From: Halanaerobiaceae bacterium | GTDB lineage: Bacteria; Bacillota; Halanaerobiia; Halanaerobiales; Halarsenatibacteraceae | Direction: 5' to 3' | NCBI GenBank assembly: GCA_003553485.1 | Contig: PWEJ01000060.1 | Coordinates: 1 to 33,868, forward strand | DNA: 33,868 nt | Shown: positions 30,111-33,868 of the stretch, piece after piece | Layout of the letters: each line of letters begins with the position of its first letter | Numbering within the stretch: the stretch's first letter is position 1 | Program-made: the position numbers and the translations under genes | The notes under the pieces: generated by a model | The model's input: only the letters and a program-made list of their open reading frames with translations | The model's database searches: none | Told to the model about the DNA's origin: nothing

Positions 30111-31418
30111 GTGGAAGAACTAAAAAAGTTTCCCATTGGAGGAGTCCATTTGCCTGAGGAAAAACATTTAACTACTGATGTTCCAATAGAAAGAATGGAT
30201 TTTCCTACCAAGGTGACAATTCCTTTACAAATGCATATTGGAGCCCCCTGCAAACCAATAATAGATGAAGGGACAGAAGTGAAAAGAGGACAGAAAATTG
30301 CAGAAAATAAAGAAGAACTTTCTGCAGCTATCCATGCCAGTATTTCTGGGGTTTATAAGGGCATTGTTACCCGACCTGGTGCTGATGGTACTGAAATTGA
30401 TTGTTTATTGATCGAAAATACTGGTCAAAAAAATGAAGAAGTTTTAATGGAAAAGGATTACGATACAGAAAACCCACAACATAAAGATATTGTAGATATG
30501 GTTAGAAAAGCAGGGGTAGTTGGTTTAGGGGGAGCCTGTTTTCCCACTCATATTAAACTTTCACCACCTGATGATAAGCCAATTGATACCATAATAATAA
30601 ATGGGGCAGAATGTGAACCCTATCTTACAGTAGATGACAGATTAATGCAGGAAAAAACAAATACCTTATTTAAAGGCCTGGAATTGATAAGACAGGCTGT
30701 AGATGCTGAAAAAGGTATAGTAGCCAGTGAAATCAATAAACCTGAAGCTATCAAAGCTATTAGAGAAGAAGCAAATAATTGGGAAAATCTTGAAGGGGTT
30801 CCTCTGGATACTCGCTATCCTCATGGAGCTGAAAAACACCTGATAAAAGCTGTTTTAAATAGAGAAGTTCCTCGGCGTGGATTGCCGATGGATGTAGGTA
30901 TAATTGTTAATAATGTACAGACTGCAATTAAAATAGCCGAGGCTTATTTTGAAGGTAGAGCTCTAACTGATAGAGTTTTAACAGTTAGTGGTAGAGGCCT
31001 GGAGAAACAATTAAATCTATTGGTTCCTATTGGAGCATCTTTGCAGGATGTCATTGATTATGCTGGAGGAATTGTTGTTGATGATTATTACACTATTGTT
31101 GGAGGCCCTATGACTGGTAAAAGAGTGTTAAGTCATGATGTCCCTGTTGCTAAAGGTACATCAGGAATTGTTGTTCTTTCTCAGGAAGAATATGGTGACA
31201 CTGAAAAAAGAGTCTGCATAAGGTGTGGCAAATGTGTTGATGTCTGTCCAATGTATTTACCACCAAATCGTATTACGGCTTTTGTAAATAATGAAATGTT
31301 TAAAGAAGCGGAAATAGCTGGCCTTAATGATTGTATAGAATGTGGTGCCTGTGCCTTTGTCTGCCCGGCTAAAAGACCTTTATTACGCTGGATACAAAGA
31401 GGAAAAGCTGCTAATTAA
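30111..31418 (+). CDS. rnfC: Rnf complex subunit C
   Basis: A 435-residue peripheral subunit. It has a lipoyl-like N-terminal region (HASISGVYKGIVTRPG), the flavin/NADH site VVGLGGACFPTHIKL (about 136-150) with NGAECEP (164-170), a soluble ligand-binding beta-grasp segment, and two [4Fe-4S] motifs: Cys369, 372, 375, 379 and Cys408, 411, 414, 418. RnfC exchanges electrons with NADH in the ferredoxin:NAD oxidoreductase that pumps Na+ or H+. The GTG start at 30111 has GGAGGTG about 11 bases upstream. The RnfD-type gene follows after 19 bases. Confidence 0.95.
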   Translation: MEELKKFPIGGVHLPEEKHLTTDVPIERMDFPTKVTIPLQMHIGAPCKPIIDEGTEVKRGQKIAENKEELSAAIHASISGVYKGIVTRPGADGTEIDCLLIENTGQKNEEVLMEKDYDTENPQHKDIVDMVRKAGVVGLGGACFPTHIKLSPPDDKPIDTIIINGAECEPYLTVDDRLMQEKTNTLFKGLELIRQAVDAEKGIVASEINKPEAIKAIREEANNWENLEGVPLDTRYPHGAEKHLIKAVLNREVPRRGLPMDVGIIVNNVQTAIKIAEAYFEGRALTDRVLTVSGRGLEKQLNLLVPIGASLQDVIDYAGGIVVDDYYTIVGGPMTGKRVLSHDVPVAKGTSGIVVLSQEEYGDTEKRVCIRCGKCVDVCPMYLPPNRITAFVNNEMFKEAEIAGLNDCIECGACAFVCPAKRPLLRWIQRGKAAN

Positions 31419-31437: not shown

Positions 31438-33868
31438 TTGGCTAATTCATATGAAATGTCAGGACCACACATTCAGGATTTAGATTCCATTGAAAAGACG
31501 ATGTGGAATGTGGTTCTGGCGTTGATTCCGGCAATGCTTGCTGCCGTATATTTATTTGGGACTTATGCTCTATATTTAATTTTCGCTACAGTTTTAGCCT
31601 GTGTGGTAGTAGAATTGCCTTATCACAGAAACAAAAAAGGTTTTAATAAAATTTTAGGAGACGGAAGTGCTGTTGTCACTGGAGTTATTTTAGGCTTGTC
31701 CCTCCCACCAACAGCACCCTGGTGGATCCCTTTAATTGGTGGGGTTGTTGCAATTGTTATTGGTAAACAACTTTTCGGAGGTTTAGGCAACAATATTTTT
31801 AACCCTGCTTTAGTGGGGCGGGCTATTTTGGCTATCTCATGGCCAGTTTTTATGACGCAATGGGTGACTCCCTTAGATGGAGTTTCAACAGTAACACCCT
31901 TATCTTCACCGGCTGCTTCCGCTTCTTATTGGGATCTTTTTATTGGAAATGTTCCTGGTAGTTTAGGAGAAACATCTGTAATTATGCTGCTAATAGGAGC
32001 TGCATACTTATATTATAAGGGATATCTTGATTTGAGGATTTCTCTTTCTTATTTAATTTCTGCAGGTGCTGTGGCCATAGTTTTAGGCACTGATCCTTTA
32101 TTTACAATTTTAGCCGGTTCTCTTGTATTTGGTGCTTTCTTTATTGCTACTGATATGGTAAGTTCTCCTGCCACTAGAAGCGGAAGGATAGCTTATGGTA
32201 TTGGTTGTGGTGTTTTAACTGTTGTTATCAGGGAATTTACTGCTTACCCTGAAGGGGTAACATTTGCAGTATTAATTATGAATGGTTTTGCCCATTTATT
32301 TGATACTTTATTAGAAGGATATAAGTTTGGGCAGATTGGTTTAAAGAAAAAAAGAATAACTCAGGTAGGAGTGGTTGTTTTAGCAACTGTTATTTTTTCC
32401 TTAATCGCCTACGGTGGAACTCAGATAACTGATACAGATTTTTTGCAACAGCATCATCGGGTCTTTGATGAATATAAAAATAGTTTTTTCCCCCAGGCTG
32501 ATAGTTTTAACATGTTAGAAGATCTTCATAGAGATAGATTATTGGCAGAGGTTACCCATGGCCATGAAAGATTGGGCTTTTTAGCATATGTTCACCGTAT
32601 AGGATATAGTGGCAGTATTGAAAATATGATTGCTCTAGATCCTGAAGGAGAAGTAATTGGTAGCAAGATAATTGAACATGAAGAAAGCTCTACTCTTGGA
32701 GCTCAAATTGAAAAGGATGAATTTAGAGATCAATTTATAGGTTTAAGATATGGTGATTTAAATCCTACTTTAGAAGGTGGCGACTTTGAACTTGACACAA
32801 TAACTAACGCTACATTATCCTCAATTGCTACAGCTCAAACCTTTGAATCAGCTTTAGAATTAGTAAACCGGCAATTAGAAGGTAATGAATATGATTATTT
32901 TGACATGCCGACAGGCAGATATGTAGGTACTGGCTCAGGTATGTGGGGGGAAATGGAAGTTGAAGTTATTATTGAAGATGGTTTCTTAATTGATGTCAAC
33001 ATTCTTAGACATAAAGATACTCCACATGTTGCTAGAAGTGCCTTTGAAAGAATGAAACCTAGAGTAATAAGTGCTCAAAGTACCGATGTAGATACAATAT
33101 CAGGATCTACTATGAGTAGCCGGGGAATGCTTTCAGCAATTGATGACGCTTTAGCTGGTGAAAGAGTAGATGTAGCTGAAGCAAGATTTGATATAGAAGA
33201 TGGAACTTATACAGGCTCAGCTTCAGGTATGATTGGAGATATAGTAGTTGAAGTTGAAATTCTTGACGGTGAAGTTGTCGACATTAAAATATTAGAAGAA
33301 GAAGAGACAACTTATCTGGCAGATCCAGCCTTTGAACTTTTAAAAGAAAGAGTATTAACAGAGCAGAGCACAGAAGTAGATCTAGTCTCAGGAGCTACTA
33401 TGACTAGTCGAGGTTTTCTTGCTGCTGTAGCTGATGCTGTTACTGTAGATGAAGATTTTGTGATTCCAGTAGATGACGGCACCTACGAAGGTGTTGGAGC
33501 TGGATATATGGGAGATATTGTTTTAGAAGTTACTGTTGAAAATGGTGAGATAGTTAGTGTTGATGTTTTGGATCATCAAGAGACTGAGGATATTTCACTG
33601 CCTGCCTTTGATGAACTAGAAGAAGAAGTTATTAGAGCTCAAACCACCAGTATAGATACCGTATCAGGAGCTACTGGTAGTAGTGAAGGATTCTTACGAG
33701 CTATTGAAAACGCTCTTGGTGTTGATGAAGAAGTTGAGGTGAGCTATGAAGATGGCACTTATACGGCCACAGGTACAGGCTATAATGATGATATAGAGAT
33801 AGAGGTAGAGGTAGAAGATGGTGAGATAACATCCATCGAGGTATTAAGCCATGAAGAAACAGAAGATA
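31438..33868 (+). CDS. rnfD: RnfD-RnfG fusion with tandem FMN-binding modules (3' end beyond window)
   Basis: One uninterrupted frame of 810 codons that is still open at the window end. TTG 31438 has GGAGGTG 7 bases upstream. Residues 1 to about 300 are a polytopic RnfD (GDGSAVVTGVILGLSLPP, NIFNPALVGRA), with DGVSTVTPL (147-155) at the place where RnfD carries covalent FMN, probably on Thr153. A membrane helix (about 310-325) leads into an RnfG-like domain (about 342-480) with DTITNATLSS (Thr459). Then come FMN_bind-like modules at 491-575, 585-668 and 677-760, with SGST (Thr558), SGAT (Thr654) and SGAT (Thr746), and a fourth from 770 onward. The external part is strongly acidic. Usual Rnf operons encode D and G separately. 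Domain identities are firm by motif; actual flavinylation is inference. Confidence 0.9.
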   Translation, partial: MANSYEMSGPHIQDLDSIEKTMWNVVLALIPAMLAAVYLFGTYALYLIFATVLACVVVELPYHRNKKGFNKILGDGSAVVTGVILGLSLPPTAPWWIPLIGGVVAIVIGKQLFGGLGNNIFNPALVGRAILAISWPVFMTQWVTPLDGVSTVTPLSSPAASASYWDLFIGNVPGSLGETSVIMLLIGAAYLYYKGYLDLRISLSYLISAGAVAIVLGTDPLFTILAGSLVFGAFFIATDMVSSPATRSGRIAYGIGCGVLTVVIREFTAYPEGVTFAVLIMNGFAHLFDTLLEGYKFGQIGLKKKRITQVGVVVLATVIFSLIAYGGTQITDTDFLQQHHRVFDEYKNSFFPQADSFNMLEDLHRDRLLAEVTHGHERLGFLAYVHRIGYSGSIENMIALDPEGEVIGSKIIEHEESSTLGAQIEKDEFRDQFIGLRYGDLNPTLEGGDFELDTITNATLSSIATAQTFESALELVNRQLEGNEYDYFDMPTGRYVGTGSGMWGEMEVEVIIEDGFLIDVNILRHKDTPHVARSAFERMKPRVISAQSTDVDTISGSTMSSRGMLSAIDDALAGERVDVAEARFDIEDGTYTGSASGMIGDIVVEVEILDGEVVDIKILEEEETTYLADPAFELLKERVLTEQSTEVDLVSGATMTSRGFLAAVADAVTVDEDFVIPVDDGTYEGVGAGYMGDIVLEVTVENGEIVSVDVLDHQETEDISLPAFDELEEEVIRAQTTSIDTVSGATGSSEGFLRAIENALGVDEEVEVSYEDGTYTATGTGYNDDIEIEVEVEDGEITSIEVLSHEETED
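32908..33868 (+). repeat. tandem FMN-binding module repeats within the rnfD-G frame
   Basis: Protein-level repeats of about 92-96 residues begin at 32908, 33190, 33466 and 33745 (the last is cut by the window end). Each has the pattern [D]GTY-x-G-x-[GS]-x-G ... [DE]GE[IV]-x-[DS]-[IV] ..., and each complete unit then has AF-x3-[KE]-x-R/E-V and an ISG[AS]T-type motif. The copies are diverged at DNA level, so this is an old expansion and not a recent tandem duplication. Confidence 0.85.

Follow-up and report, generated by a model that had tools for sequence, protein, structure and literature searches.

A truncated, RnfB-less Rnf derivative with a fused array of FMN-binding modules in a salt-loving Halanaerobiaceae bacterium, proposed to export electrons

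An rnfD-rnfG fusion gene extended by FMN_bind modules

The window analysed here is the whole of contig C168 (PWEJ01000060.1, 33,868 nt) from a draft assembly of a Halanaerobiaceae bacterium (GCA_003553485.1) that comprises 172 contigs. At its end, an rnfC-type gene is followed by a reading frame that begins with a TTG start and runs through 810 codons without a stop until the contig ends (Table 1). A Pfam search of the encoded protein matched residues 8–297 to NQR2_RnfD_RnfE (PF03116; E 3.6e-104) and gave five passing stretches of FMN_bind (PF04205; E 1.2e-62); no further Pfam domain was found in the chain, the NqrF-type NAD domain (PF00175) included. Among the NCBIfam models, TIGR01946 (rnfD) scored above its cut-off, the rnfG models matched residues ~365–480 with scores below cut-off, and the NqrB model reached 145.8 bits, under its cut-off of 349.9. 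With phmmer, residues 5–188 of the RnfG solved in 7zc6 covered residues 306–483 of the fusion. The structure model of the fusion (pTM 0.29) gave no more than a tentative indication of where its helices lie. A preliminary description, made from the letters alone, had read a single chain passing from RnfD into an RnfG-type domain and then into FMN_bind modules, and the Pfam matches, the NCBIfam matches, and the open frame all agree with it; the Pfam profiles also confirm its count of at least three complete tail modules and one partial module.

The five threonines that the same description had named as flavin attachment sites proved correct in a position check. They lie in the motifs STVTP (T153), TNAT (T459), SGST (T558), and SGAT (T654 and T746), and the chain qualifies as a multi-FMN_bind protein because more than one of its domains carries a flavinylation motif (459, 558, 654, and 746). 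The sequence of tail module 1 matches 8p2b, the crystallised module of the multi-flavin protein CbFMN4, for which covalent FMN uptake has been shown (PMC10339131). In the alignment, the RnfD part keeps T153, the asparagine of an FNPA motif, and the aspartate of an ATDM motif, and we would equate the latter two with the riboflavin-site residues N123 and D249 (PMC11889175). The product of the upstream rnfC gene was also matched by PF01512, PF13375, and Fer4, and retains all eight Fe-S cluster cysteines (8/8) in the alignment. Because RnfG has one membrane helix and its gene usually follows rnfD, joining D to G would be topologically simple.

Table 1. Features of the alternative rnf locus and of candidate acceptor genes. 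Plain coordinates refer to the window; those with an L prefix refer to other loci (L013, contig C51).
Feature	Position	Strand	Evidence or remark
rnfC-type gene, NADH-side subunit with Nuo51 FMN fold, RnfC_N, and two 4Fe-4S sites	30111..31418	+	TIGR01945, E 8e-145, above cut-off
rnfD-rnfG-FMN_bind(n) fusion gene, open to contig end	31438..33868	+	Frame, Pfam, NCBIfam
RnfD membrane part, residues 8–297; FMN threonine T153 at 31894–31896	31459..32328	+	PF03116, TIGR01946, position check
Hydrophobic helix, residues 302–329, matching the single RnfG membrane anchor	32341..32424	+	phmmer; low-confidence model
RnfG-type FMN_bind domain; threonine T459 at 32812–32814	32602..32859	+	FMN_bind units, rnfG models
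Tail FMN_bind module 1; threonine T558 at 33109–33111	32938..33153	+	FMN_bind unit; 8p2b match
Tail FMN_bind module 2; threonine T654 at 33397–33399	33226..33441	+	FMN_bind unit
Tail FMN_bind module 3; threonine T746 at 33673–33675	33502..33717	+	FMN_bind unit
Partial tail module 4, cut by contig end	33778..33868 (FMN_bind stretch to 33864)	+	FMN_bind unit
End of similar tail module on C51	L013:3-242		FMN_bind-type module
rnfE'	L013:263-856		Weak Rnf-Nqr gene
rnfA'	L013:849-1403		Weak Rnf-Nqr gene
PhsA/PsrA-like enzymes	L189:4407-7360 and L190:4779-7700		Rhodanese genes follow the first

Probable continuation of the operon on a second contig

Contig C51 opens within the same type of module. 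A fusion-type gene stops there after 79 codons, and the order from this point is module end, rnfE', rnfA', mobA, tatC, exbB, exbD, and tonB, the names of the last three being taken from sequence and synteny. The end of the window and the start of C51 are alike at 96 of 108 bases, and an exact overlap joining C168 directly to C51 was not found. Because the alignment of these 108 bases has 12 differences and no gap, the two ends are probably neighbouring but different repeats, in which case the array of this genome would have at least five tail modules; were both ends versions of a single module, the count would be four. We infer the link between the two contigs from synteny with relatives, since rnfC, the fusion gene, rnfE', and rnfA' are read on one contig, with no rnfB, in five other genomes (G005, G016, G026, G030, and G037). 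A Spirochaeta MAG (L092) likewise has the order C-DGn-E'-A' and no B. The best reading of these sequences is an operon of four genes, rnfC, rnfD-G-FMN(n), rnfE', and rnfA', of which the window would hold the first half.

The preliminary description had left open whether a separate rnfG, rnfE, rnfA, and rnfB, or apbE would follow past position 33868. The counterparts of rnfE and rnfA are there, on C51; a separate rnfG, an rnfB, and an adjoining apbE are not, and the sole apbE found in this genome lies on a different contig.

Loss of RnfB and of the membrane [2Fe-2S] cluster ligands

rnfB was found neither on C51 nor in any complete alternative operon, the Spirochaeta locus L092 included. The draft genome is 97.7% complete, and a second rnfB-like partner was not found in it; the only RnfB found lies in the canonical operon. 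Two matches to PF04060 were considered as RnfB candidates and rejected: that on C163 reads as another Fe-S protein, and that at the start of C110 is a 57-residue contig-end fragment.

The membrane-embedded [2Fe-2S] cluster of Acetobacterium Rnf is bound by two cysteines of RnfA and two of RnfE; mutants of these four residues showed no growth and no NAD reduction, and the cluster is proposed to be the gate of sodium pumping (PMC11889175). In a table of about 60 loci, both cluster cysteines were present in 61 of 62 RnfE and 61 of 61 RnfA proteins from canonical loci, whereas none of the four ligand cysteines (0/4) was present in any intact alternative E'/A' pair examined. Because the complete canonical rnfCDGEAB operon in the same genome keeps all of its cysteines, their loss is a trait of the alternative paralog and not of the organism. 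Profile searches matched E' to the solved RnfE and A' to the solved RnfA, each at 4e-13 (hhalign 98.6% and 97.8%, respectively), and on these alignments the assignment of E' and A' as true RnfE and RnfA relatives is secure. The structure model of E' (pTM 0.54) had no PDB match, which counts neither for nor against this assignment. The E' proteins of G030 and G037 are near-identical.

The alternative complex thus has an RnfC with two 4Fe-4S sites, an RnfD with its FMN threonine, and an RnfG domain with a motif threonine, but neither an RnfB in the operon nor the four RnfA/RnfE cluster cysteines. Because these two defining features are missing, it is not an Rnf in the strict sense, and it would work like a one-way half of Rnf. 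With RnfB and the four ligands absent, the usual ferredoxin-to-NAD loop cannot run, so the preliminary description was mistaken in seeing an Rnf complex to which a wire had been added.

Conservation, distribution, and tail length

The preliminary description had pointed to relatives as the place to look for the same fusion, and the same frame indeed runs uninterrupted in nine more genomes of the order, which makes ten with our own; five of the nine carry the complete gene. Complete fusion genes span five genomes in two families, as well as one Spirochaeta MAG. Between the congeners G001 and G002, dN/dS was 0.05 for the RnfD part, 0.07 for the junction, 0.04 for the RnfG part, and 0.07 for the tail, and values were 0.02–0.07 wherever they could be estimated. 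Every part of the fusion is under purifying selection. Together, the open frame in relatives and these ratios rule out a frameshift or a missed stop between the RnfD and RnfG parts.

A profile of E' found members in exactly the ten fusion genomes, in G006, and in two Halanaerobium genomes, where the member belongs to a second, tail-less set. Scanning named genomes added two soda-lake Spirochaetales MAGs and one Clostridia MAG. One of the two Spirochaetales loci is cut inside the RnfD part, and the fusion is visible in the other only. Across 199 genomes sampled evenly from the phylum, RnfC scored 862 bits in our genome compared with at most ~510 bits in the others, and no RnfC of the alternative type was found within the score range of our genome in any other member of the sample. 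In a phylogenetic tree of this one gene (39 sequences), the alternative RnfC members clustered with support of 93/83 (core 100/100), and their clade joined the two other B-less sets of our genome at 97/89, which suggests that the B-less complexes share a single origin.

The number of tail modules beyond RnfG varied from one in Spirochaeta to two or three in Halanaerobium (G026, Halanaerobium saccharolyticum, and G030), three in G016, four in the congener G001, and eight in G005. The tail of G004 (L060 and L201) has ~15 modules over two contigs if these join directly, and under that proviso the count exceeds the maximum of 13 sites per protein in a 2021 survey (PMC8238504). Many contigs break within the repeats, so short-read genomes will undercount modules.

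The tail-less paralog of the two Halanaerobium genomes (L202:2774-6453 and L203:7718-11251) comprises RnfC, RnfD, E', and A', with no RnfB, and its RnfD has an extra C-terminal helix and no FMN domain. In both Spirochaetales loci, rnfC is immediately preceded by a lipoprotein-like gene that has no Pfam match, and these two genes (L092:8920-9987 and L094:153-1262) are related. Eubacterium ruminantium (L133:11297-13015) has an RnfD-RnfG fusion in an operon that is canonical in all other respects, RnfB and every cysteine being present, so the fusion alone does not imply a new function.

Neighbouring genes and other flavin-protein genes of the genome

On C31 and C25, our genome encodes two PhsA/PsrA-like molybdenum enzymes that carry Tat signals and are accompanied by Fe-S partners; an NrfD-type membrane anchor was not found in the genome. 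An anchor-less, Tat-exported molybdenum reductase of this PhsA/PsrA type is one candidate acceptor. Close PhsA-type relatives occurred in 5 of 10 fusion genomes versus 0 of the 28 other genomes of the order that were searched (Fisher p 0.0005), a count confounded by kinship in that all five positive genomes belong to one family. The lack of this candidate in the other half of the fusion genomes counts against it. Genes for an Na+/H+ antiporter in Mrp/Mbh order, named from sequence, lie at L061, L084, L085, L086, and L087, in four genomes of two families. In the genus of our genome, mobA and tatC come after rnfA'; the mrp set of G005 occupies this place, between rnfA' and exbB. Both the PhsA-type enzyme and the Mrp set may be regarded as leads.

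Further Rnf-like genes occur elsewhere in the genome. Contig C60 carries a second RnfB-less set in the order D-G-E-A-C (L019:4917-8932), with a single-FMN RnfG and with E and A that have none of the four cluster cysteines; a 290-aa gene without a Pfam match precedes it. A lone RnfC-RnfD pair without G, E, A, or B lies on C93 (L070:4311-6640), and its RnfC clusters with the other B-less sets. On C66, there is a solitary RnfD-like gene (281 aa; L069:6286-7131) with no adjoining rnf gene. A membrane-anchored protein with six FMN_bind modules is encoded on C158 (L014:4222-6105), among NADH/formate dehydrogenase-like and carbon monoxide dehydrogenase-like genes.

Proposed electron path and alternative explanations

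In the known Rnf path, electrons pass from ferredoxin through RnfB, the RnfA/RnfE cluster, the RnfG FMN, the RnfD flavins, and RnfC to NAD (PMC11889175). Once RnfB and the cluster are taken away, NADH, RnfC, RnfD, and RnfG are left, and the flavin array is the obvious endpoint. We consider it probable that this truncated Rnf derivative acts as an exporter that moves electrons from NADH via RnfC, RnfD, and RnfG to the flavin array. RnfC would be reduced by NADH or a similar donor in the cytoplasm, RnfD would pass the electrons across the membrane via riboflavin and FMN, and the RnfG domain, followed by the tandem row of FMN_bind modules, would conduct them outward across the periplasm, with an ApbE transferase presumably flavinylating each module at its motif threonine. 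The arm through which ferredoxin electrons enter (RnfB and the RnfA/RnfE [2Fe-2S] cluster) and the ion-pump gate have been lost, with the NADH arm and the outward flavins staying, and the complex would serve as an electron exporter instead of a ferredoxin:NAD loop. RnfE' and RnfA' may persist as cluster-less scaffold or ion-handling subunits. Gene order, the fusion, module count, the loss of RnfB from the locus, the loss of the cluster cysteines, the retention of cofactor residues, selection, and distribution were computed here; the covalent flavins, the NADH donor, the direction, and the acceptor are the parts of the half-Rnf reading that we infer.

The potential of NADH is −320 mV. A multi-flavin protein has been measured at −184 mV (PMC10339131), so that transfer to such an array would be downhill from NADH. 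The exbB, exbD, and tonB genes next to the operon are consistent with a cell that has an outer membrane. The outward-pointing flavin chain is another part of the preliminary description that we accept as right. The conserved retention of E' and A' counts against a pure electron exporter, which would not obviously need them. The most plausible of the alternatives is itself unlikely: NADH oxidation via the half-Rnf might drive, or be driven by, an Mrp/Mbh-type Na+/H+ antiporter, with E' and A' as the coupling piece. An Mbh-ordered mrp set stands directly after rnfA' in G005, G007, and G006, of the same family as our genome, and in G016, of another family. However, no such set is present at the loci of our genome, its congeners, G004, Halanaerobium, or Spirochaeta, and adjacency does not amount to physical coupling.

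The path might also run inward, extracytoplasmic electrons reducing NAD+ via the array, given that a flavin chain is not directional in itself when it lacks a potential gradient (PMC10339131). We give this little credence, because NAD would have to be reduced uphill from a multi-FMN potential near −184 mV, and the known gate of the Na+ pump is missing. Slightly less credible still is a full Rnf with a side branch, in which ferredoxin would enter as usual and the array would be a second extracellular exit. Such a "bifurcated" arrangement has a precedent in the multi-flavinylated RnfG reported from rnfB-containing clusters (PMC8238504), and RnfC, RnfD, and RnfG are all retained here; it is already contradicted by the sequences, however, as every complete alternative operon is without rnfB and the four cluster cysteines are gone in every intact member, so that even an RnfB borrowed from the canonical operon would be of no use. 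That paralog erosion or an assembly chimera produced both the fusion and the absences is hardly credible at all: contigs do stop within the repeats in five genomes, but the complete genes in two families and in the Spirochaeta MAG, together with the low dN/dS, lead us to regard a decaying or artefactual gene as already refuted by conservation. Returning to the exporter reading, its extension to a whole class is tentative and, in our judgement, somewhat doubtful: a single-origin class of NADH-driven exporters without RnfB and the membrane cluster, with arrays of up to ~15 modules, some of them coupled to Mrp or feeding anchor-less, Tat-exported molybdenum reductases.

The Rnf loop is usually viewed as one machine. 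Here, one limb is kept, and the other has been dropped, as has the cluster to which the A. woodii model assigns the gating of sodium pumping. A half-Rnf with a longer outward flavin part would be a natural test of the electron-transfer parts against the ion-pumping parts of Rnf, and it suggests a haem-free way out of a diderm cell. The span of 1 to ~15 tail modules among relatives makes the length of the wire testable. In its salt-loving host, the enzyme probably sends NADH electrons outward instead of running the usual Rnf loop.

Comparison with known systems

An RnfB-less Rnf, an RnfD-RnfG fusion, and a Halanaerobium Rnf were not found described in the open literature searched. With no description found, an RnfB-less, cluster-less Rnf with a flavin array seems previously undescribed, whereas multi-flavinylated RnfG and two-subunit exporters are already known. 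A close likeness is to the Rnf complex RnfABCDGE of Acetobacterium woodii (9eri) and Clostridium tetanomorphum (7zc6), in the homology of RnfC, RnfD, and RnfG, the cofactor residues, and the order C-D-G-E-A, and the RnfE and RnfA of these structures are the best matches of E' and A'. Unlike that complex, the one described here has no RnfB and no [2Fe-2S] ligands, its D and G are fused, and an FMN_bind array is added. The multi-flavinylated RnfG clusters of Meheust et al. (2021; PMC8238504) likewise combine RnfG with several FMN_bind domains and a proposed extracytosolic exit; however, their RNF class is defined by RnfB and read as a bifurcated full Rnf, whereas the present complex has lost both RnfB and the membrane cluster, and its RnfD is part of the RnfG chain.

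A single path from NAD(P)H to an extracytosolic flavin, through an RnfD/NqrB-type and an RnfG/NqrC-type part, is also shared with the NQR/RNF-like two-subunit systems (PMC8238504 and PMC11334425). In those systems, an NqrF-type NAD domain is fused to the RnfD part and the FMN threonine is absent, whereas the present complex has RnfC, keeps the threonine, and retains E' and A'. Na+-NQR is related through NqrB, NqrD, and NqrE, the homologues of RnfD and E'/A', but no NqrF is present here, RnfC keeps Fe-S sites that NqrA does not, and the NqrB model scored below its cut-off. CbFMN4 and SaFMN3 (PMC10339131; 8p2b) consist of tandem FMN_bind modules of the same family, with covalent FMN shown for theirs; they are free proteins that were studied alone, whereas the modules described here are fused to a membrane redox subunit.
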